From Burkholderiales bacterium (GTDB taxonomy: Bacteria; Pseudomonadota; Gammaproteobacteria; Burkholderiales; Burkholderiaceae_C), in NCBI GenBank assembly GCA_947508055.1, contig CANNRR010000011.1:1-42205 (forward strand): a DNA stretch of 42,205 nt, read 5' to 3'. This document shows positions 1-40,518 of this stretch, piece after piece. The position numbers and the translations under genes were made by a program. The stretch's first letter is position 1. Every line of letters begins with the position of its first letter. The notes beneath the pieces are model-generated. The model was not told where the DNA came from. It did no database searches and saw nothing but the letters and a program-made list of their open reading frames with translations.

Positions 1-224
1 GGGCGTATTTCTGCCATGCCCTTGAGCATGGCGCGAAAATTGGGTGTAGCGCCCTCTTCTCGGTACTGGTCTCGCAGGTAGTTCACCACTTCCCAGTGTG
101 CATCGGTCAATTCGATGTTCTCGGAGGCGGCTATGACGCGCACCGCCTCGTCATCAAATACTGCCTCCAACAGATAACCCTGATCGTCGGCTTCCAGTTC
201 TACGCCGTGGACGTTGTACATCAT
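1..224 (-). CDS. TusE/DsrC-family sulfur-relay protein (C-terminus outside window)
   Basis: About 74 residues are visible and the gene runs off the left edge. The translated text contains LTDAHWEVVNYLRDQYREE, which matches the helix-turn-helix-like core of DsrC/TusE proteins (compare SDNHWEVINFLREYYNEY in the dsrC of this window). DsrC and TusE carry persulfide sulfur on a C-terminal cysteine, in sulfur oxidation or tRNA 2-thiolation respectively. The C-terminus is missing here, so I cannot tell whether the one or two functional cysteines are present or whether it is a cysteine-free regulatory relative. Two ATGs are adjacent, and GGAG lies 9 bases before the first, at 224-222, which I take as the start. 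It lies 35 bases after the Cas6-like gene on the same strand, so co-transcription is likely. The family call is firm; the subtype is open. Confidence 0.85.
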   Translation of the reverse strand, partial: MMYNVHGVELEADDQGYLLEAVFDDEAVRVIAASENIELTDAHWEVVNYLRDQYREEGATPNFRAMLKGMAEIR

Positions 225-259
225 CGCTTTTGCTCCATTGTTTAAGTCAAAAAAAGAAT

Positions 260-880
260 CTAGCCACCCACCGCCGCCGCCGACTTGTGGGGCACAAATA
301 TCCCACAGCCCAGCAACCGGTGCGGCCCCAGCCCCCGCTCTTGCAGGCGCAATGACTGCTCCGGAACCAGCCCATGCAGCATCATGCTGAAGGTGGCCAT
401 TTCGAACCCATCCACCAGCACGCTTTGGCGCTTGCCGCAAACCCGCTCACCCGCTATAGCCAACGCCGCCAGTTCGGCTTCCATGATTTGCATGAATGCG
501 GGTTCGTCGACACCCATGGCCGCGACCCGGTAGGCATACAGCGTGGCATGTGATTGCAGCACACGCAGGTGCACCGCCCCCAGCCGCAGCGCGTGTCCTG
601 CCACGTTCAGTTCTACGCCGGCCAAGGCTTGCAGTGCCTCCAGTCGGTTGCCATTAACCCGCAAGATCAAACGTGTACGTCCTGACAAAAGGGCGAGGCG
701 TTCGGGGCCGGACACCAACTTCAGCGGGTGGATACCGGCACCTGCGTCGCTGCTCAACCAAGGTAACCGTTCCGTCAGAGCGTGCTGCAATGCCTGCGCG
801 TGCTCACGCGGCAAAGCTTTTCCCTCCAGCGGAAAGACCGCCTCCACCAGCATGCCCTGATGCGCAAAAACCGCCGTCAC
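260..880 (-). CDS. orphan Cas6/Cmx6-like RAMP protein
   Basis: The 206-aa product resembles the Cas6/Cmx6 family described from type I-MYXAN CRISPR systems. It has a VEAVFPLEGKALPREH start, then LPWL, an IHPLK segment, a second ferredoxin-like half, and a C-terminal glycine-rich loop GLGPHRLLGCGIFVP, the hallmark of RAMP RNA-binding proteins. Family members cut CRISPR precursor RNA, but no CRISPR repeats or other cas genes are visible in the window. I chose GTG at 880 as start: it overlaps the upstream gene's stop as GTGA, has AGGAG 5 bases before it, and puts the first beta strand at the N-terminus. A longer ATG form from 925 would overlap that gene by 49 bases. A TusE/DsrC-like gene follows. 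I infer an RNA-binding or RNA-cutting role outside CRISPR; the substrate is unknown. Confidence 0.8.
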   Translation of the reverse strand: MTAVFAHQGMLVEAVFPLEGKALPREHAQALQHALTERLPWLSSDAGAGIHPLKLVSGPERLALLSGRTRLILRVNGNRLEALQALAGVELNVAGHALRLGAVHLRVLQSHATLYAYRVAAMGVDEPAFMQIMEAELAALAIAGERVCGKRQSVLVDGFEMATFSMMLHGLVPEQSLRLQERGLGPHRLLGCGIFVPHKSAAAVGG

Positions 881-1092
881 TTTGGCTCCTGCGTCTGTGC
901 CCAGCGCAACAAGGCCTCGCCCCACAGTCGTGCCGACCCGGGGTCAATCTCAAACACCGTGAAACGGCTCTTTTCGCGTATGCGCGTGCGCAACAGGCTC
1001 ATACCCCCCGCTTCGTAGTCAAGTTGCTGCAATTCAATGACCTGCCCACCCAGGGGAATGGTCAGCTTTTCAATGGGTGTAACGATGGCCAT
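877..1092 (-). CDS. 71-aa conserved-looking protein of unknown function
   Basis: I do not recognise a named family. The small acidic/basic protein has a beta-rich first half (IPLGGQVIELQQLDYE) and a central RTRIREKSRFTVFEIDP stretch, then a WGEALLRWAQ helix. It has no cysteines, no signal peptide and no membrane segment. Its stop overlaps the GTG start of the Cas6-like gene by four bases, a sign of translational coupling, and it is the first gene of the minus-strand operon divergent from dsrA. That linkage suggests it works with the RAMP protein and the TusE/DsrC-like protein, but nothing in the sequence gives a reaction. A coding role is supported by the tight overlap and the SD-bearing neighbour rather than by homology. 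Confidence 0.65.
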   Translation of the reverse strand: MAIVTPIEKLTIPLGGQVIELQQLDYEAGGMSLLRTRIREKSRFTVFEIDPGSARLWGEALLRWAQTQEPK

Positions 1093-1145
1093 GGTGCGTG
1101 TTGGTTGGTAGCGCTATTGGGCGCAATGACCGGCACTGCCGTCTA

Positions 1146-1184
1146 TCACCGGGAAGGGTGGGCTCGTATAGCCCAAATGGGTAG
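1146..1184. promoter_or_regulatory. candidate NarL-type operator between the cas6-like operon and dsrA
   Basis: Positions 1169-1184 read TAGCCCAAATGGGTAG, whose reverse complement occurs exactly at 16990-17005 upstream of soeA. A weaker copy of the same pattern (TCACC, five bases, GGGTG) lies at 1146-1160, one 23-base step away. ATGGGTA is the complement of TACCCAT, which fits the E. coli NarL heptamer TACYYMT. The site lies 120 bases before dsrA and about 77 bases before the divergent 71-aa gene, so it could serve both. The NarL-like regulator at 14992-15690 is the natural candidate to bind it. This is inference; no promoter elements were firmly identified. Confidence 0.5.
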
Positions 1185-1303
1185 CCCCCAATACTCAACG
1201 AGGGTGATAGCTACAGCGCCCATGGGCCCTTACGATTCACCCCAGAAACAGCACCTACGACCGATTACCGCGTTCTAAAAAGCGCGCTGACAGGAGACAC
1301 ACG

Positions 1304-2584
1304 ATGAGCAAGAAACAACACGACACCCCCATGCTCGACCAGCTAGAAGCCGGTCCGTGGCCCAGCTTTGTCACAGGCCTGAAGCGCCTGGCCAAAGACA
1401 GCGACTACATGACCGACTTGATGGGTCAGCTGGAACACTCCTACAAAACCCGCAAGGGCTACTGGAAGGGCGGCACGGTCGGCGTGTTTGGCTACGGCGG
1501 CGGTGTGATCCCTCGATTCTCCGAAGTGGCCGAGATGTTCCCGGCGTCCAAGGAATTCCACACCCTGCGCATTCAGCCACCCGCCGGTATGCACTACAAC
1601 ACCGACGTGTTGCGCAAAATGTGCGATATCTGGGAAAAGCATGGCTCGGGCCTGATTGCCTTTCACGGTCAGTCTGGCGACATCATGTTCCAGGGTGCCA
1701 GCACGGCCAATGTGCAAGGCGCGTTTGACGAATTGAACGAGCTCGGCTTTGACCTGGGCGGCGCCGGTCCTGCGGTTCGTACCAGCATGTCTTGCGTTGG
1801 CGCTGCACGCTGCGAGCAATCCTGCTTTGACGAGGCACGTGCACACCGCCAGGTGGTCAATACCTTCCTGGACGACATGCACCGCCCGGCACTGCCGTAC
1901 AAATTCAAATTCAAGTTTTCGGGCTGCCCCAATGACTGCATGAACTCCATCCAGCGTGCCGACATGGCCGTCATCGGAACCTGGCGCGACAACATGCGCA
2001 CCGACGAACCGTTGGCACGCAAGTGGTTCGCCAAGCACGGTCTCACGGAACTGGTCAACGATGTGGTGAGCCGTTGCCCCACCAAGGCCATCATGCTCAA
2101 GGAGACGAAGGATGTCTCCAAGGGAGCAAAAATCACCAGCGTAGCGCTGAACGACACCCAGTCACTTGAAATTGACAACAGCAACTGCGTGCGCTGCATG
2201 CACTGCATCAACGTCATGACCGGCGCCCTGGCAACCGGTACCGACAAGGGTGTTACGGTGCTGATGGGCGGCAAGCGCACCCTGAAAATTGGCGACCTGA
2301 TGGGCACCGTGGTCACGCCCTTCATGCCCATGAAGACCGACGAAGACTACCAGGCACTGGTGGAGCTGGCGCAGAAATCAATCGACTTCTTCGCCGAGAA
2401 CGCGCTGGAGCATGAGCGCACCGGCGAGATGATTGAACGCATCGGCCTCATCAATTTCCTGGAAGGCATTGGCCTGGAAATCGACCCCGCCATGGTGTCC
2501 ACCCCCCGGACCAATCCGTACGTACGCACCGATGGCTGGGATGACGAAGTCGCCAAGATCAACGCCCGCAAAGCAGCAGCCTGA
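1304..2584 (+). CDS. dsrA: reverse dissimilatory sulfite reductase, alpha subunit
   Basis: With DsrB this 426-aa cytoplasmic protein forms the siroheme enzyme that, in sulfur oxidisers, oxidises DsrC-bound sulfane sulfur to sulfite with release of six electrons. Siroheme-[4Fe-4S] cysteines are visible at about 164, 170, 208 and 212 (SCVGAARC and SGCPNDC). A ferredoxin-type domain follows with C258 and C295, C298, C301. The start has AGGAGA at good spacing. It heads the dsr operon, 25 bases before dsrB. The oxidative (rather than reductive) type is inferred from the dsrEFH and dsrL genes downstream. It is preceded by a 211-base divergent region holding a candidate operator. No truncation is seen; the length is usual. 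Confidence 0.97.
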   Translation: MSKKQHDTPMLDQLEAGPWPSFVTGLKRLAKDSDYMTDLMGQLEHSYKTRKGYWKGGTVGVFGYGGGVIPRFSEVAEMFPASKEFHTLRIQPPAGMHYNTDVLRKMCDIWEKHGSGLIAFHGQSGDIMFQGASTANVQGAFDELNELGFDLGGAGPAVRTSMSCVGAARCEQSCFDEARAHRQVVNTFLDDMHRPALPYKFKFKFSGCPNDCMNSIQRADMAVIGTWRDNMRTDEPLARKWFAKHGLTELVNDVVSRCPTKAIMLKETKDVSKGAKITSVALNDTQSLEIDNSNCVRCMHCINVMTGALATGTDKGVTVLMGGKRTLKIGDLMGTVVTPFMPMKTDEDYQALVELAQKSIDFFAENALEHERTGEMIERIGLINFLEGIGLEIDPAMVSTPRTNPYVRTDGWDDEVAKINARKAAA

Positions 2585-2609
2585 AACAACCGAACACAGG
2601 AAGACAACC

Positions 2610-3680
2610 ATGGCAACCATGCGCACCCCCATCGAGAGCGGCGTACCAGACAACAAGCAGTACCTGCATCCCCTGATGCACAAGAACTACGCCAACTGGA
2701 AATTCCACGACCGCCCACGTCCCGGTGTTCTGCACCACGTCTCGCACTCAGGTGACGAAATCTGGACCGTGCGCGCTGGAACACAGCGCCAGATGGACCT
2801 GTTCACCATCCGCAAGCTGTGCGACATTGCCGACACCTATGCCGATGGCCACGTGCGCTTCACCATCCGCTCCAACATCGAATACATGGTCTCCGACGCT
2901 GCCAAAGTTGCGCCGTTGATTGAATCACTGACCAGTAGCGGCTTTCCGGTGGGCGGCACGGGCAACTCGGTGTCGGCCATTGCCCACACCCAGGGCTGGC
3001 TGCACTGCGATATTCCCGGCACCGATGCCTCGGGTGCGGTCAAAGCCCTGATGGACGACCTGCACGCCGAGTTCATCCAGGAAGAAATGCCCAACCGGGT
3101 TCACCTGTCCACCTCCTGCTGTGAGATCAACTGCGGTGGTCAGGCCGATATTGCCATCATCATCCAGCACACCAAACCACCCAAGATCAACCATGATCTG
3201 GTGGCCAATATGTGCGAGCGTCCGACTGTCGTCGCGCGCTGCCCGGTGGCGGCAATTCGCCCGGCCATGGTCAACGGCAAACCGTCTTTGGAAATTGACG
3301 AAACCAAATGCATGTGCTGCGGCGCCTGCTACCCACCCTGCCCTCCCATGCAGATCAATGACCCCGAGCACAGCAAGCTGGCGATCTGGGTTGGCGGCAA
3401 GAACTCCAATGCCCGCGGCAAGCCGACCTTCATGAAGATGGTGGCCTCGGGTCTGCCCAACAACCCGCCCCGTTGGCCTGAAGTGTCGGCCATGGTCAAG
3501 AAGATCTTGTACACCTACAAGGAAGACGCACGCTCCTGGGAGCGGGTATCCGACTGGATCGAGCGTATCGGCTGGCCCGCATTCTTCGAGAAGTGCGACC
3601 TACCGTTCACCAAGTACCTGATTGACGACTGGCGCGGTTCGCGCTCCAGCCTGAACGCTTCGACCCATATCCGTTTTTGA
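2610..3680 (+). CDS. dsrB: reverse dissimilatory sulfite reductase, beta subunit
   Basis: A 356-aa partner of DsrA in the alpha2beta2 enzyme. Siroheme/cluster residues lie in STSCCEINCGG (C170, C171, C175) and C211. The ferredoxin domain has CMCCGACYPPC at about 234-244. The reading frame is open further upstream, through the end of dsrA, but ATG 2610 follows the dsrA stop and has AGGAAG just before it, and the protein then begins MATMRTPIES as expected for DsrB. After dsrB comes a 68-base gap holding a long palindrome (3685-3738) before dsrE. All cofactor cysteines of the family appear present, so the enzyme should be active. Confidence 0.97.
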   Translation: MATMRTPIESGVPDNKQYLHPLMHKNYANWKFHDRPRPGVLHHVSHSGDEIWTVRAGTQRQMDLFTIRKLCDIADTYADGHVRFTIRSNIEYMVSDAAKVAPLIESLTSSGFPVGGTGNSVSAIAHTQGWLHCDIPGTDASGAVKALMDDLHAEFIQEEMPNRVHLSTSCCEINCGGQADIAIIIQHTKPPKINHDLVANMCERPTVVARCPVAAIRPAMVNGKPSLEIDETKCMCCGACYPPCPPMQINDPEHSKLAIWVGGKNSNARGKPTFMKMVASGLPNNPPRWPEVSAMVKKILYTYKEDARSWERVSDWIERIGWPAFFEKCDLPFTKYLIDDWRGSRSSLNASTHIRF

Positions 3681-3684
3681 AACT

Positions 3685-3738
3685 TTGCGGGTCAGACCAA
3701 GATTTGCGCAGCAAATTTGCTCTGACCCCAACTGACTA
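3685..3738. repeat. palindromic dispersed repeat, long variant, between dsrB and dsrE
   Basis: TTGCGGGTCAGA begins the element and TCTGACCCCAACTGACTA ends it; arms GGGTCAGA (3689-3696) and TCTGACCC (3721-3728) pair perfectly. The middle has its own near-palindrome (GATTTGC and GCAAATTTGC). Shorter relatives lie at 4114-4151, 40434-40471 and 40481-40518. In the transcript it would fold into a stable hairpin and could set dsrAB apart from downstream genes in mRNA stability. Confidence 0.8.
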
Positions 3739-3748
3739 GAGAAGAAAA

Positions 3749-4108
3749 ATGAAATTTGGTTTACTTGTCAGCGAAGGGCCCTACACGCACCAGGCGTCCG
3801 ACAGCGCCTACCAGTTCGTGGTGGCCGCTTTGGCCAAGGGCCATGAGATCCAGCGCGTATTTTTCTACCATGACGGCGTCAACAACGCGACTCGCCTCAC
3901 CGAGCCGCCGCAGGACGACCGCCACGTGGTGAACCGCTGGTCGGCACTTGCTGCAGACCACAAAGTAGACCTAGTGGTCTGCGTGGCGGCGGCTTTGCGC
4001 CGCGGCATCAAGGATGAAGTGTTGGCCCCCGGCTTTCGCATTTCCGGCCTGGGCCAGTTGGTGGACAGCGGGATAAAGGCAGACCGCCTGATCACGTTTG
4101 GTGACTAA
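3749..4108 (+). CDS. dsrE: sulfurtransferase subunit DsrE
   Basis: A 119-aa TusD/DsrE-fold protein; in Allochromatium DsrE2F2H2 takes sulfane sulfur (from rhodanese/TusA) and hands it to DsrC. The active cysteine sits in LVVCVAAALRRG at residue 78, the same position described for Allochromatium DsrE. This separates dissimilatory DsrE from unrelated DsrE-fold proteins. GAGAAGA precedes the ATG. The gene stands between two copies of a palindromic repeat, with dsrF next. The presence of the active cysteine in an EFH set is a strong mark of oxidative sulfur metabolism. Confidence 0.95.
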   Translation: MKFGLLVSEGPYTHQASDSAYQFVVAALAKGHEIQRVFFYHDGVNNATRLTEPPQDDRHVVNRWSALAADHKVDLVVCVAAALRRGIKDEVLAPGFRISGLGQLVDSGIKADRLITFGD

Positions 4109-4113
4109 AGACA

Positions 4114-4151
4114 TTGCGGGACAGATCTTCAGCTCTGTCCCCAACTAATTA
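4114..4151. repeat. palindromic dispersed repeat, short variant, between dsrE and dsrF
   Basis: Starts TTGCGGGACAGA and ends CAACTAATTA. Arms GGGACAGA (4118-4125) and TCTGTCCC (4134-4141) are perfectly complementary. It fills nearly the whole dsrE-dsrF gap and is a close relative of the tandem pair at 40434-40518. Confidence 0.8.
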
Positions 4152-4161
4152 TGAGTAACCC

Positions 4162-4557
4162 ATGAGCGAACAACAAGCAGCACCCGCCGGCGGCCCCAAA
4201 GTGAAGAAATTCATGTTTGTCAACCGCAAGGCTCCCTACGGAACCATCTACGCCCTGGAAAGTCTGGAGGTGGTCTTGATCACCGCTACGTTCGACCAGG
4301 ACGTGAGCCTGGTCTTCATCGACGACGGCGTATACGAACTGGTCAAGGGCCAGCAGACCAAGGGCATTGGTATCAAGAACTTTTCTCCCAGCTACCGTGC
4401 ACTGGATGGCTATGACGTGGAGAAGCTCTATGTGGACCAGGCCTCAATGGCACAGCGCGGATTGACCGAGAAAGACCTGCTGGTACCGGTGGAGGTGCTC
4501 GATGCCCAACAAATGGGCCAGTTGATGGCGCAACAGGACGTGATCCTGAGCTTCTGA
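4162..4557 (+). CDS. dsrF: sulfurtransferase subunit DsrF
   Basis: A 131-aa TusC/DsrF homologue, the middle subunit of the DsrEFH hexamer. It shows the family fold in FMFVNRKAPYGTIYALESLEVVLITATF and the FIDDGVYELVKGQ segment. DsrF in this complex has no catalytic cysteine, and none is visible here, which fits. The ribosome site is weak (GAGTAAC), perhaps because a repeat element was inserted just upstream at 4114-4151. An N-terminal extension of about 14 residues (SEQQAAPAGGPK) looks disordered. dsrH follows 18 bases later. Confidence 0.93.
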   Translation: MSEQQAAPAGGPKVKKFMFVNRKAPYGTIYALESLEVVLITATFDQDVSLVFIDDGVYELVKGQQTKGIGIKNFSPSYRALDGYDVEKLYVDQASMAQRGLTEKDLLVPVEVLDAQQMGQLMAQQDVILSF

Positions 4558-4575
4558 GAAAAAGGACAAAACCCC

Positions 4576-4875
4576 ATGTTGCACATCGTCAATAAATCCC
4601 CCTTTCAGACCAGCACGCTCGACACATGCTTGCGCATGGCCCAGCCGGGCAATGCCCTGCTGCTGATCGAAGACGGCATCTACGCAGCCACCGTCGGTAG
4701 CGCGACCGAGGAACGCATACGGGCCTGCTGCGCCACGTTGAAGGTCTATGCACTGCAACCCGACATGGACGCCCGCGGCGTGACGGCGAAGGTGATCGAC
4801 GGTGTAACGTTGGTCGACTACGGTGGTTTTGTCGACCTGACCCTGGAACACAGCACATCCCACTCGTGGTTGTGA
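4576..4875 (+). CDS. dsrH: sulfurtransferase subunit DsrH
   Basis: A 99-aa TusB/DsrH homologue, the smallest DsrEFH subunit. The conserved cysteine is at residue 18 in TSTLDTCLRMAQPG, close to the position known in the family, and LLIEDGIYAAT matches the DsrH core. AAGGA lies before the start. It follows dsrF and is 29 bases before dsrC, consistent with an EFH-C sulfur-transfer module in which DsrEFH delivers persulfide to DsrC. Confidence 0.93.
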   Translation: MLHIVNKSPFQTSTLDTCLRMAQPGNALLLIEDGIYAATVGSATEERIRACCATLKVYALQPDMDARGVTAKVIDGVTLVDYGGFVDLTLEHSTSHSWL

Positions 4876-4904
4876 TTTGAATTAACTAATTACTGGAGAA
4901 GAAA

Positions 4905-5237
4905 ATGAGCTTTGAAATCAATGGCACGACCTACGAAACCGACGAAGAGGGCTACTTGCTCAATCTCGCTGAATGGACCCCTGAAGCTGCCGTTTACCTG
5001 GCAGAAGAAGAAAAAGTGCCACTCAGCGACAACCACTGGGAAGTCATCAACTTCTTGCGCGAGTACTACAACGAGTACCAGATTGCGCCGGCCGTGCGGG
5101 TGCTGACCAAGGCCATTGGTAAGCAATTCGGCGAAGAAAAGGGCAACAGCAAGTACCTTTATGACCTGTTCCCCTATGGCCCAGCCAAACAGGCATGCAA
5201 AATTGCGGGCCTGCCCAAGCCCACCGGTTGCATCTAA
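4905..5237 (+). CDS. dsrC: DsrC sulfur-carrier protein, complete with both cysteines
   Basis: A 110-aa protein ending KQACKIAGLPKPTGCI. The penultimate cysteine C109 (CysA) and C98 eleven residues before it (CysB) are both present, so this is true DsrC, not TusE. DsrC carries sulfane sulfur to DsrAB and leaves as a trisulfide or disulfide form that DsrMKJOP processes. GGAG precedes the ATG. It is one of three DsrC-family sequences in the window: the others are the partial gene at the left edge and the C-terminal domain of DsrN. This one is the canonical substrate protein. Confidence 0.97.
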   Translation: MSFEINGTTYETDEEGYLLNLAEWTPEAAVYLAEEEKVPLSDNHWEVINFLREYYNEYQIAPAVRVLTKAIGKQFGEEKGNSKYLYDLFPYGPAKQACKIAGLPKPTGCI

Positions 5238-5258
5238 ACCTATTCACCAGGTCTGACG

Positions 5259-5993
5259 ATGTCGCTGCTGACCATTTTTTATTCGGCATTGTTCTACCTG
5301 GCCACAGGGGTGTTCGTCATCGGCTTGGGCCTGAAGATTCGCGGCTACGCCAAAACGCCTGCTCCGCTGAAAATTCCGACCACACCGTCCCCCATCACCA
5401 TGGGGGGGGTGCGCTGGCGCATGGCGCGTGAGGTGGTTTTCTTTGAGAGCCTGTTCAAGTCCAGCAAATGGACCTGGATTTTTGGCTGGACTTTTCACAT
5501 GGCGCTGCTGCTGGTAGTGTTGCGCCACCTGCGCTACTTTCAGGAACCGGTTTGGCTGCCTGTCGTGTTGATTCAACCGTTTGGCACCTACGCCGGTTTT
5601 GCCATGGTTGCAGGGCTGGGCGGTCTTTGGGCTCGGCGCTGGCTGGTCGACCGGGTACGCTATATCTCCACTCCGTCCGACCATCTGATGCTGGCATTGT
5701 TGGTGGCCATTGGGGTCACCGGCCTGGGTATGCGCTTTGTTGCACACACCGACATCGTTGCGGTAAAAATGTTCGCCCTGGGGCTGATGCGGCTGGACTG
5801 GCAGAGCCTGCCCGCCGACCCCGTGCTGCTGGTGCATCTGGCTTTCGTGGCCGTGCTCATGCTCATCTTTCCCATCAGCAAGCTGTTGCACGCCCCCGGT
5901 CTGTTCTTCAGCCCCACCCGCAACCAGGCGGATAACGCCCGCGAAGTGCGCCATGTATCCGCATGGGCAGCTGCGCTGGACAAGCGTCCCTGA
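5259..5993 (+). CDS. dsrM: membrane cytochrome b subunit of DsrMKJOP
   Basis: A 244-aa integral membrane protein of the NarI/DsrM type, with about five or six hydrophobic helices starting at MSLLTIFYSALFYLATGVFVIG. Histidines likely to bind heme b occur in GWTFHMALLLV, LRHLRYF, LLVHLAFVAV and KLLHAPG. In sulfur oxidisers DsrMKJOP moves electrons between DsrC thiols and quinone or periplasmic cytochromes. A run of eight G (5402-5409) lies in codons 48-51 without breaking the frame. The start at 5259 has AGGT upstream. It is followed 17 bases later by dsrK. Confidence 0.95.
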   Translation: MSLLTIFYSALFYLATGVFVIGLGLKIRGYAKTPAPLKIPTTPSPITMGGVRWRMAREVVFFESLFKSSKWTWIFGWTFHMALLLVVLRHLRYFQEPVWLPVVLIQPFGTYAGFAMVAGLGGLWARRWLVDRVRYISTPSDHLMLALLVAIGVTGLGMRFVAHTDIVAVKMFALGLMRLDWQSLPADPVLLVHLAFVAVLMLIFPISKLLHAPGLFFSPTRNQADNAREVRHVSAWAAALDKRP

Positions 5994-11995: not shown

Positions 11996-13762
11996 ATGTC
12001 GGGCCTTCTGATTTCGGCAGCACACAAGTCGTCGGGCAAGACCACGATTTCTGTCGGCCTGTGCGCCGCATTGTCCGCTCAGGGGATGGTGGTGCAGCCC
12101 TTTAAAAAGGGACCAGACTACATTGACCCGATGTGGCTGGGCGAGGCCAGCGGGCGCGACTGCTTCAACTTGGATCCCTATTTGATGACGTCCCAGCAGA
12201 TCACCACCTGCTTTGCACGCAACGCTGCGACGGCTGACATCTGCATCGTTGAAGGCAACAAGGGCTTGTACGATGGACTGGCACTGGACGGCAGCAACAG
12301 CAACGCCGCCTTGGCACAAGTGCTGGATCTGCCTGTGGTCCTGGTGCTCGATGCACGCGGCATGACACGCGGCATTGCCCCACTGATTCTGGGCTACCAG
12401 GCGTTTGACGCACGCATTCGTATTGCGGGAGTGATCCTGAACCAGTTGGGCGGAGCCCGCCACGAATCCAAGCTACGGGCTGTAATCGAGCACTACACCA
12501 ATGTAGCGGTTCTGGGGGCGATTGCCCATGACCCCCGGTTGACCGTAGTAGAGCGCCATCTGGGGTTGATGCCCAACCATGAACTCGATGATGCAGCCCA
12601 ACGTGTACGTGCCATGGGCCAGTTGATTGCACAGCAGGTCGACTTATCACGCGTTCGACAAGTAGCCCAAAGCGCTGGTCCGGTTGCGCCAGCACCTAGC
12701 CCGCAGCAGGTATTGCCATTGCCACGCTCAAGGGCTGCAACCGAGTCCATGTCTCCGATTCGCATTGGAGTGGCACGCGACAAGGCATTTGGTTTCTATT
12801 ACCCTGATGATCTGCTGGCGCTGGAGCAGGCTGGCGCATCGATCGTGCCGGTGGACACGCTACACGACACACAGTTGCCTGCAATGGATGGCCTGTTCAT
12901 TGGGGGCGGTTTCCCCGAAATGTTCATGGCCGAGTTGCAGGCCAATACTGCCATGCGCAGCAGCATCCATTCAGCCATTGAAGCGGGCCTGCCGGTCTAC
13001 GCCGAGTGTGGTGGCCTCATGTACCTGGCACGCACCCTGCGTTGGAAAGATCAGGTCTACACCATGGTGGGCTCCATACCCGCCGATGTGGTAATGCATG
13101 AGCGCCCCGTTGGGCGCGGCTACGTTGAGTTGCAGGCAACGGGCGATGCGCCCTGGTTCGCGCTGGGTAGATCGGACCCGGCGACCATACGCGGACACGA
13201 ATTCCATTACTCCAGCCTCGAAAACATGCCGCCCGACCTGACATTTGCCTATCGCGTGCTGCGCGGCCACGGGGTGGATGGCCAGCGCGACGGCATCGTG
13301 TACCGCAATGTGCTTGCATCGTATGCCCATCTGCGCAACGGGGCAGGATCAGGCTGGGCAGACGCGTTTGCTGCTTTTATTCGGGCTAGAAAGGCTGTGC
13401 AAAAACAGCTATCCAATGAACCAGCACGCACGGCTCATGCGAACGTGTTCCCCATGGCTACCGATGTTGAAGGCTATCTGAAGAATGTTGACGAATGGAC
13501 AGAGGACTTCGCCCGCGCGCGAGCAAAAATTGAAAATCTGGAGCTGACCGAAGCGCATTGGCAAGTTATCACCTTTTTGCGGGACTATTTCGAAGAGCAC
13601 CGGGTACAAGCACAAGTGCGTGCCATGATCTGGCACTTCGCAAAAGTATGGGGTCCCGAGCTTGGCAACAACCATCACCTGCACACTTTATTTCCTATCG
13701 GCGGCCCGCAAAAGCAGGGCAATCGGCTGGCCGGACTTTTAAAAACCAAAGGTGAACATTGA
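11996..13762 (+). CDS. dsrN: DsrN siroheme amidase with a fused DsrC-like C-terminal domain
   Basis: Residues 1 to about 475 are a CobB/DsrN-type glutamine-dependent amidotransferase. They have an N-terminal P-loop (SAAHKSSGKTTISVGLC), the KKGPDYIDP motif and a glutaminase-like part with YAECGGLMYL. It amidates siroheme for DsrAB. Residues 487-588 are extra: LTEAHWQVITFLRDYFEEHR is a plain DsrC/TusE core. The C-terminus GLLKTKGEH has neither the CysA nor the CysB of DsrC. The frame is open throughout. An internal ATG at 13454 could start the domain separately, but I see no ribosome site there. Usual DsrN ends near residue 475, so this is a fusion, like the cysteine-free RspA branch joined to DsrN. 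Confidence 0.9.
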   Translation: MSGLLISAAHKSSGKTTISVGLCAALSAQGMVVQPFKKGPDYIDPMWLGEASGRDCFNLDPYLMTSQQITTCFARNAATADICIVEGNKGLYDGLALDGSNSNAALAQVLDLPVVLVLDARGMTRGIAPLILGYQAFDARIRIAGVILNQLGGARHESKLRAVIEHYTNVAVLGAIAHDPRLTVVERHLGLMPNHELDDAAQRVRAMGQLIAQQVDLSRVRQVAQSAGPVAPAPSPQQVLPLPRSRAATESMSPIRIGVARDKAFGFYYPDDLLALEQAGASIVPVDTLHDTQLPAMDGLFIGGGFPEMFMAELQANTAMRSSIHSAIEAGLPVYAECGGLMYLARTLRWKDQVYTMVGSIPADVVMHERPVGRGYVELQATGDAPWFALGRSDPATIRGHEFHYSSLENMPPDLTFAYRVLRGHGVDGQRDGIVYRNVLASYAHLRNGAGSGWADAFAAFIRARKAVQKQLSNEPARTAHANVFPMATDVEGYLKNVDEWTEDFARARAKIENLELTEAHWQVITFLRDYFEEHRVQAQVRAMIWHFAKVWGPELGNNHHLHTLFPIGGPQKQGNRLAGLLKTKGEH

Positions 13763-14991: not shown

Positions 14992-15690
14992 CTACATTTT
15001 TACCCGGTGCCCTCCCTCGCCTGCCGCCTTAACGCCCTCGGGGGAACTGCCGTACTCAAATGCAAACACGGCGGCTTCTACGCGTGAATGCAGATTGAGC
15101 TTGTCCATGATGTGGCGCACATGCAGTTTGACCGTGTTGTGGCTGATATCCAGCGCCTTGGCGATGACCTTGTTGCTCTGACCGCGTGCCACGTGGTTAA
15201 GCACTTCGCGCTCCCTTTCGGTAAGCGAAGCCACCAGATCTCCCATCACCGATACCTTGGGCCCGGACTGGAGAATCTGTGCCAGTTTCAAGGTCATGGC
15301 CGAGGCCACCACCATCTCGCCACGGGCGGCACGACCGATGGCATCAATCACTTCTTCAGGCTCCATGTCCTTGAGCAAATAGCCGCGTACCCCTGCGCGC
15401 AGCGCCGCCGCCATGTCGTCTTCGCTGTCGCTCATGGTCAGAATCACGATCGGGGTTTCACACCCCTCATTGCGGACCAAGCGCAGCACGCTGAGTCCGT
15501 CGATCTTGGCCAGGCGCAGATCCAGCACCATCAAATCAGGCTTGTGCTCGCGTAACAACGGCACGACCTGTCCAGGGTCTCCAGTGGCGACCACTACATC
15601 CATGTTGCCCCGGTGCTCCAGCAGTTCCGTCAAGCCACTGCGGCACAAGGCGTGATCGTCAACCAGCATGACGCGTGTTTTGGGAGTCAT
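14992..15690 (-). CDS. NarL/LuxR-family response regulator
   Basis: A 232-aa two-component regulator. The receiver has D11/D12 and the phospho-acceptor D57 in PDLMVLDLRL. A C-terminal GerE-type helix-turn-helix is LTEREREVLNHVARGQSNK with recognition helix NTVKLHVRHIMDKLN, closely like the DNA-contacting helix of E. coli NarL (TVKVHVKHMLKK). Its start overlaps the kinase stop by four bases (ATGA), so the pair is one transcript. The pair lies between the dsr and soe operons, both of which carry a NarL-heptamer-like sequence upstream. I infer it regulates both; the signal is unknown. Regulation of unlinked genes is possible. Confidence 0.93.
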   Translation of the reverse strand: MTPKTRVMLVDDHALCRSGLTELLEHRGNMDVVVATGDPGQVVPLLREHKPDLMVLDLRLAKIDGLSVLRLVRNEGCETPIVILTMSDSEDDMAAALRAGVRGYLLKDMEPEEVIDAIGRAARGEMVVASAMTLKLAQILQSGPKVSVMGDLVASLTEREREVLNHVARGQSNKVIAKALDISHNTVKLHVRHIMDKLNLHSRVEAAVFAFEYGSSPEGVKAAGEGGHRVKM

Positions 15691-16898
15691 ATGCCGCCAA
15701 CTCCTTGCTTGGCAGCCACTACCGGCAGCCGCAAGCGGACCTGGGTTCCCCCACCATCATTGGGGCCCACGACAAGACTGCCACCGAGTCGCTTGGCACG
15801 ACTCTGCATAATTTCCAACCCAAAATGGTTGGAGGGCGCCAAACCTTTGGCCAGAGTCACAAGCGTTGAAACAGAAGGTTCATCCATGCCCAGACCATCG
15901 TCTTCAATTCGGAACTCCAGTTGCTGACCGTCCCTTGCAATAGAAACAATGGCACGTCGCGCCATAGAATGCTTTGCAATATTGGCCAGTGCTTCCTGAA
16001 TAATGTAGAACACCTGCACTTCCTGTTCATCGTTGAGGTTCAGGCCGTTCGCTGAATTCCTGATTTCCAGCGAGATGCCAACCCGGTCAAAATATCCGTC
16101 CGCAACGCCCTGCAACGCGTGCAACAAACCCAGAGGATCCATCCGTGTGCGGAAATAGGTCATGACTTCGCGCAATTTATCATGCACTTCTCCAACGCCA
16201 TTCTTGACATCGAAAAAATATTTGAGCGAACGTTGGTCATCGTGTGCCAGCATGGCTTCGTTCAGCAGTGGTAGCCGCATTCTGACGTAAGCAAGCGTCT
16301 GCGCAATAGTGTCATGTACCTCGTTGACCATCTCTTGGCGCTCTTTCATCACTGTAACGCGTAATCGCTCACGCTCGATCCTGGCATTGTGCAAAGCCTG
16401 GCCCAACATTTGCCCTATCAGCCGCAACATGGTCTCCATTTGCGGATCAATACTGGCGTTGGAATCAAAAAACAGGTTGTAAATACCCAAAACCTGACCG
16501 CCATGGGGCAATGAAATAGCCAGCACTCGCTGGCACTTTATCCCAAAATACGCGTGATCGGTGTGCTTGCCGCAGGTTTTGACATCCTCCACCCAACCTA
16601 ACACATCGGACCCCGACGCAACGCCACACATACCGCAGTCGCGCGCAACCAGCCGTTCTGAACTTTGTATGTTCGCTGGCAAGCCTTGCTGTGCAACCAA
16701 ACGCATCGACTTGCCGTCATCGGTCAACGTTCGAACTGCGCCCGCCTGCGCACCCGCCATTGCAAGGATGGCAATCAGAAAGCGCTCAAGTAATGGTGCC
16801 AAATCACTGTCGGCCGCTAGCTCTGCGGTCAACCCTGGAACACCAGCGCCCATGTCCATGGGAACTTTGGGCTGAAGTGGGGGGTTTGGGGGTGTCAT
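15687..16898 (-). CDS. soluble NarX-type sensor kinase with cysteine-bearing GAF region
   Basis: A 403-aa histidine kinase. Residues about 30-170 look like a GAF domain. They hold four cysteines: C88, C91 (DCGMC), C109 and C122. The HisKA_3 phospho-acceptor is H195 in NEVHDTIAQTLAYVR. The ATPase part has QEALANIAKHS, DDGLGM and HFGLEIMQSRAKRLGG. There is no signal peptide or membrane helix, so it senses a cytoplasmic cue. The cysteine set suggests a redox, persulfide or Fe-S sensor, by analogy with cysteine-based kinases such as NreB; this is inference. No good ribosome site is seen before ATG 16898; starts at residues 14 or 16 are possible. It diverges from soeA. Confidence 0.9.
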   Translation of the reverse strand: MTPPNPPLQPKVPMDMGAGVPGLTAELAADSDLAPLLERFLIAILAMAGAQAGAVRTLTDDGKSMRLVAQQGLPANIQSSERLVARDCGMCGVASGSDVLGWVEDVKTCGKHTDHAYFGIKCQRVLAISLPHGGQVLGIYNLFFDSNASIDPQMETMLRLIGQMLGQALHNARIERERLRVTVMKERQEMVNEVHDTIAQTLAYVRMRLPLLNEAMLAHDDQRSLKYFFDVKNGVGEVHDKLREVMTYFRTRMDPLGLLHALQGVADGYFDRVGISLEIRNSANGLNLNDEQEVQVFYIIQEALANIAKHSMARRAIVSIARDGQQLEFRIEDDGLGMDEPSVSTLVTLAKGLAPSNHFGLEIMQSRAKRLGGSLVVGPNDGGGTQVRLRLPVVAAKQGVGGI

Positions 16899-40433: not shown

Positions 40434-40471
40434 TTGCGGGACAGACCTTTAGCTCTGTCCTCAACTGATTA
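40434..40471. repeat. palindromic dispersed repeat, first of a tandem pair
   Basis: TTGCGGGACAGACC to CAACTGATTA, with GGACAGA and TCTGTCC arms. Same family as 3685-3738 and 4114-4151. Confidence 0.8.
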
Positions 40472-40480
40472 GGGGTGTCA

Positions 40481-40518
40481 TTGCGGGACAGACCTTTAGC
40501 TCTGTCCTCAACCAATCA
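40481..40518. repeat. palindromic dispersed repeat, second of a tandem pair
   Basis: Begins 47 bases after the first copy, with the 18-base core GACAGACCTTTAGCTCTG identical in both. The end differs (CAACCAATCA). Lies between pgk and fba. Confidence 0.8.

Follow-up and report, generated by a model that had tools for sequence, protein, structure and literature searches.

A Cas6-fold protein encoded divergently from dsrA in Gammaproteobacteria, a probable helper or regulator of sulfur oxidation

It is well supported that a Cas6 fold has been repurposed in gammaproteobacterial reverse Dsr (rDsr) metabolism, and the Cas6-like protein described here probably helps or regulates sulfur oxidation, in a role not described before. 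A more specific proposal, judged as likely to be true as false, is that Gammaproteobacteria, taken widely as in GTDB, use it as a CRISPR-independent rDsr accessory which acts mainly by binding and together with a cysteine-less DsrC paralog. No published link between Cas6 and dsr was found among the matches listed in the literature search, as judged from titles, abstract beginnings and retrieved passages.

The window, i.e. the whole analysed stretch of 42,205 nucleotides, starts at base 1 of contig C11, with nothing on the contig to the left of the DsrC/TusE-like gene. The genes of the locus are listed in Table 1. The GTGA overlap described in the sequence-only reading was found where the DUF6967 gene and the Cas6-like gene are joined, and the 71-aa protein, unnamed there, belongs to DUF6967 (PF22295). 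The Cas6-like stop and the start of the DsrC/TusE-like gene (224) are separated by 35 bases.

Table 1. Features of the Cas6-like operon and the adjoining dsrA gene in the window
Feature	Position	Strand	Evidence
DsrC/TusE-like gene, 5' part, 74 residues, ended by contig end	3..224	-	PF04358 E 1.4e-18
Cas6-fold protein of dsr-linked clade, 206 aa, GTG start	260..880	-	PF09559, TIGR02807
DUF6967 protein, 71 aa, first operon gene	877..1092	-	PF22295 E 1e-25
Divergent region common to operon and dsrA	1093..1303		Alignment of 17 close loci
dsrA, first gene of dsr operon, divergent from Cas6-like operon	1304..2584	+	TIGR02064 534 bits, cut-off 392.85

The linkage with dsrA was followed in a named set (the best 80 of 100 relatives from a genome scan), in a class sample of 276 evenly drawn genomes, the class being, to judge by how the relatives are named, Gammaproteobacteria in the GTDB sense, and in an order sample of 200 genomes, which shares part of its genomes with the class sample. 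The operon faces dsrA, as was claimed from the letters of the window, and in 78 of the 80 named loci dsrA is upstream of the Cas6-like gene and encoded on the other strand, the remaining two (L020, L056) beginning too close to the gene; in 76 of the 80 the Cas6-like gene is immediately preceded by DUF6967. PF09559 was detected in 92 of the 276 class-sample genomes and dsrA in 91 (89 over the cut-off and fragments in G194 and G234), both being present together in 88 (Fisher p 6e-63, a value not corrected for phylogeny). PF09559 occurs alone in G059, G080, G110 and G263, where the gene is at most 2.6 kb from a contig end on the upstream side, and dsrA alone in G094, G106 and G185, where 150 to 1880 bases of contig precede dsrA; because contig ends lie near the genes on the relevant side, these seven exceptions may be assembly gaps. 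The two genes share a contig in 67 of the 92 genomes and are within 5 kb of each other in 66 of these 67. The order sample holds PF09559 in 37 genomes and dsrA in 40 (in one as fragments), both in 37, and in all 37 the two genes are divided between the strands and separated by 416 to 833 bases. It can be said that the conserved linkage with sulfur genes, suggested at the outset as a check, was recovered, and that both the linkage and the co-occurrence with dsrA expected of an rDsr accessory are found, within the class only. Most genomes of the sampled class with a PF09559 “Cas6” carry dsrA too (88/92), and therefore automatic names and CRISPR surveys have been misled. If the rDsr accessory proposal is true, a CRISPR-family fold has been domesticated into core energy metabolism and is retained even at 1.0-1.1 Mb: four genomes of this size with no cas1 match (G035, G125, G225 and G253, i.e. 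loci L120, L157, L189 and L195) keep the Cas6-like gene, the DsrC-like gene with a GGY ending and dsr together. In G093 and G200 the Cas6-like gene lies apart from dsrA and the remaining operon genes.

The identification as a Cas6/Cmx6-like protein was borne out. PF09559 (E 1.8e-53, 181.8 bits, cut-off 26.7) and TIGR02807 cas6_cmx6 (146.8 bits, cut-off 98.85) both match the 206-aa protein over its whole length, the equivalog cut-off of the latter being passed, and the glycine-rich loop is kept. The predicted structure has the tandem ferredoxin-like fold of Cas6 with the C-terminal glycine-rich loop, and RNA-binding Cas proteins rank first among the fold matches; this comparison used the highest-scoring matches, and families absent from the list may still match. 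With type I-MYXAN Cas6/Cmx6 (TIGR02807, PF09559) the protein thus shares the whole-length match, the predicted fold, the loop and R74, whereas the dsr-linked proteins have no cas operon or array found nearby. The Cas6 of type I-B CAST (PDB 8fcj, 8fcu) is a subunit of Cascade, in contrast to the protein studied here, which adjoins dsr genes. The search of viral contigs returned 24 pattern stretches, none of them a relative.

The CRISPR-linked comparison set comprised the best 120 of 524 matches to one cyanobacterial query, and what is invariant in it therefore holds for this branch; cas context was read for three plasmid loci, one of them the query itself. These cyanobacterial-type relatives were aligned with 170 dsr-linked proteins (two of 172 having been dropped by length), that is 81 from the named set (counting the window copy) and 89 from the class set; the named set is mostly betaproteobacterial, and the two are collections rather than clean taxa. 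Identity to the cyanobacterial-type CRISPR set is 25-30%, many of the residues invariant there are missing from the dsr-linked proteins, and the median pI is lower (6.45 and 5.93 in the two dsr-linked sets vs 9.16). In the numbering of P0123, Y34, H48, Y89, R163, K164, K167 and K169 are lost or variable; R74 and the glycine-rich GCG[IL]F loop are kept in both groups, and the dsr-linked proteins have near-invariant residues of their own (R68, E126, G149, H198, K199). H27 (=H32) is present in 98% of the class set vs 60% of the named set, and eight loci (L039, L048, L049, L058, L062, L071, L073, L078) have neither H27 nor H51. The candidate catalytic histidine of the family is assigned by analogy. 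In a tree for which the 120 CRISPR-set proteins were thinned at random to 40, these 40 and the full 170 dsr-linked proteins fall on either side of a split with support 1.0. Since CRISPR-set residues are lost or variable and both histidines are missing in eight loci, a conserved nuclease activity is unlikely on the basis of the alignment. The ability to bind RNA, or even to cut it, may have been retained, because the loop, R74 and, in 98% of the class set, H27 are kept, the window protein has a pI of 8.76 and 43 of the 170 dsr-linked proteins have a pI above 7. The same features, i.e. the Cas6 fold, the loop and R74, speak for the main rival explanation, a post-transcriptional regulator whose Cas6 fold would recognise hairpins in dsr mRNA and, by binding or cleaving RNA, process or stabilise segments such as dsrEFH and dsrC; the loss or variability of R163, K164, K167, K169, H48 and Y34 and the eight loci without either histidine speak against it, and it is regarded as possible but rather improbable. 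According to the rDsr accessory proposal the Cas6 fold would have been recruited and its crRNA-processing residues lost, the present action being mainly binding, not cutting, exerted jointly with the cysteine-less DsrC paralog.

A quite different role would be that of a working crRNA-processing Cas6 which serves arrays elsewhere in the genome, since the Cas6 equivalog cut-off is passed and the genome of the window has a CRISPR array of its own. This array, nine copies of a 37-nt repeat at a spacing of 66 bases, sits beside Cas9 (1015 aa, 617 bits) and a type II Cas1 in a type II locus (L208, contig C131 of G000, 760-5717); the PF01867 search gave one Cas1 in this genome, scoring best as the type II form. 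Type II CRISPR systems are known to work without Cas6. The genome is a draft (91.8% complete, 389 contigs), and another CRISPR locus could therefore have been missed. The window contains no CRISPR array, in agreement with the sequence-only reading, the only close direct repeat being a 2-copy 32-mer at 40434, and no CRISPR-like array was found in 171 neighbourhoods (80 named and 91 class-sample, 2.65 Mb). Among three plasmid I-MYXAN controls the array script detected the array in two, and it also detected that of the type II locus of the genome itself; the third control was missed, either because the script falls short of full sensitivity or because the array of this control sits elsewhere. The neighbours of the Cas6-like gene are dsr genes, and the left side of the window is the contig end. 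In the class sample cas1 was present in 43 of 92 PF09559 genomes and in 69 of 184 others (p 0.15, not corrected for phylogeny), and the gene is kept in genomes with no cas1 match. A Cas6 working for a distant array was rejected, as the own genome offers a type II locus only and PF09559 is not associated with cas1; this role is strongly disfavoured and extremely improbable, and the Cas6-like gene seems to be no part of a CRISPR system.

The partner gene was read at first as TusE or DsrC, placed 35 bases on. The spacing and the family hold: the 74-residue fragment in the window is matched by PF04358 (67.8 bits) and TIGR03342 (56.8 bits). The name TusE does not, as the relatives belong to a paralog family which lacks the terminal cysteine. 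A close full-length relative in L002 (3748-4074) ends in GKGGY and is without the DsrC cysteines; the window copy stops before the C-terminus, and the search of its own genome gave no second place at high identity. A complete DsrC-like gene lies at most 2.5 kb downstream of the Cas6-like gene in 141 of 171 loci, and in 139 of these 141 it ends in GGY or AGY, the cysteine at the inner position being kept in only 14 of the 139. By comparison, 119 of 122 complete DsrC-type proteins encoded on the dsr strand end in GC[VI]. The partner is thus like DsrC/TusE in its profile match and, in many named loci, in the kept C-terminal arm AGLPxPxG, and unlike it in the GGY or AGY ending; from these endings, therefore, the partners are taken as DsrC paralogs with the DsrC shape and no sulfur-carrying terminal cysteine. 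Cysteine-less DsrC homologs have been called “RspA”, a name which the literature search did not confirm. Four extra DsrC/TusE genes of open function are described for A. vinosum (PMC3368242).

The earlier idea of a link to tRNA thiolation through a TusE partner is unsupported for the same reason. Membership of the neighbour in the DsrC/TusE family and the TusD/TusC-type DsrE and DsrF of the dsr operon in the window would fit it, but the neighbour family has no terminal cysteine, as needed for persulfide transfer, and the Cas6-like gene tracks the presence of dsrA, so thiolation appears highly improbable. In the rDsr accessory proposal, the paralog, which retains a large part of the C-terminal arm of DsrC (AGLP onward), could for this reason plug, or keep a place in, the channel of DsrAB that takes DsrC, and the Cas6-like protein would be the partner of this plug candidate; under sulfur scarcity, rDsr assembly or activity would in this way be held back or tuned. 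If true, this points to an unstudied layer of control or assembly in the reverse Dsr pathway, which oxidises stored sulfur. Elsewhere in the window (11996-13762), a DsrN-type amidase (GATase_3 and CbiA domains) is fused to a C-terminal DsrC domain which ends in TKGEH and misses the terminal cysteine; a DsrC-like C-terminus with nearly the same TKGEH-type ending is present in six further loci (L031, L045, L051, L056, L062, L068).

The region shared by the operon and dsrA was previously called an operator. Conserved blocks are present in the 17 close loci at 1141 (GTCTAT), 1177 (ATGGGTAGC, also given as ATGGGTAG), 1196 (CAACGAGGGTGATAGC) and 1231 (TACGAT), and 41 of 79 named-set loci have the 8-mer ACCTACCC in the 200 bases that precede dsrA, the maximum for any 8-mer in ten shuffles being 8. 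A conserved sequence and a putative operator are therefore supported, which falls short of a proven binding site. A histidine kinase with a GAF domain and a LuxR-type response regulator are encoded close to the dsr operon (window 14992-16898), and relatives of one or both are near the Cas6-like gene in several loci (e.g. L042, L071, L144, L151). The ATGGGTA at 1177 resembles the NarL heptamer, and by this likeness the kinase and regulator pair may act on the shared divergent region.

As to RNA structure, z was computed for gaps of 35-300 nt between dsr genes. Values below -2 were obtained for dsrA-dsrB in 42 of 73 gaps, dsrB-dsrE in 15 of 30 and dsrC-dsrM in 58 of 106, and for dsrK-dsrL in 11 of 73. 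Such frequently unusual structure favours the post-transcriptional regulator, as do the dsrEFH and dsrC transcripts of A. vinosum, which on sulfide are above dsrA (PMC3397948). On the other hand, z falls below -2 in only 12 of 144 cases upstream of dsrA and in 2 of 10 dsrE-dsrF gaps, no hairpin conserved in sequence is evident in the dsr gaps of the 18 loci viewed, and the dsrC-dsrM hairpin is weak or absent in several close relatives (L005, L008, L009, L014). A conserved hairpin substrate in the dsr operon was thus tried as a candidate and found unsupported, the structured gaps having no evident common sequence in these 18 loci. The tRNA or mRNA cleavage which had been suggested for the protein becomes doubtful with the loss of CRISPR-set invariant residues, the eight loci without either N-terminal histidine and the want of a conserved hairpin in the gaps viewed. 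An unlikely but related idea joins the two partners in a sulfur-responsive ribonucleoprotein switch, where the cysteine-less DsrC look-alike would sense Dsr occupancy and the Cas6-derived protein would bind dsr RNA, with no need of cutting, so that transcript fate is tied to sulfur flux. The Rfam scan over the window gave no family reaching its gathering score. Short palindromes of the form GGG[AT]CAGA...TCTG[AT]CC are present in the window between dsr genes at 3689-3728 and 4118-4141 and as a tandem pair at 40434-40512, with similar ones in L004; the dsrB-dsrE and dsrE-dsrF hairpins of the window look like this dispersed palindromic repeat.

Beyond the class the Cas6-like gene was absent from the dsrA genomes sampled. 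In a phylum sample of 199 genomes dsrA was over the cut-off in 32 and PF09559 was found only in G000 and G447, leaving 30 out-of-class dsrA genomes without it; Dsr can therefore run without the Cas6-like protein. Five of these 30 were read upstream of dsrA: G366, G430 and G456 have a TauD-like gene, a gene for a protein of about 63 aa and DUF6967 with no Cas6-like gene, and in G280 and G305 none of the four was seen. In the order sample 3 of the 40 dsrA genomes are without PF09559: G577 has DUF6967 followed directly by a DsrC-like gene with no Cas6-like gene between, G533 has DUF6967 and then a TusA-like gene (by reading of the sequence), and in the one stretch of G586 that was read, nothing but a weak match of 74 residues was seen, on the other strand. 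In view of the DUF6967-type operons without a Cas6-like gene (G366, G430, G456, G577, G533), the latter seems to have joined an already existing dsr-divergent operon at a later time, and it may be missing.

The other members of the operon recur as well. Within 5 kb upstream of the Cas6-like gene, the class-sample loci have a TauD-like dioxygenase in 62 of 91, the protein of about 63 aa in 74 and one of about 235 aa in 31, and a protein of about 67 aa is found downstream in 49 of 91. The TauD-like gene was named by Pfam; representatives of the three others gave no Pfam match above the cut-off. A TauD-like gene divergent from dsrA is called dsrQ, the name being credited to Lenk et al. 2012 in PMC7596348, and the Cas6-like gene is alike in having such a gene upstream; a word search of the text of PMC7596348 did not return Cas6. 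DUF6967 and the protein of about 63 aa were tried as one family, for which the hhalign result (E 0.037, probability 1.4) is too weak; the two stand side by side in out-of-class loci. DUF6967 is found in G090 and G197 of the class sample without PF09559 and without dsrA over the cut-off, so that its tie to dsr is not strict. The out-of-class dsr loci L219 and L220 have, after DUF6967, a gene with a start that by eye resembles the siroheme synthase CysG.
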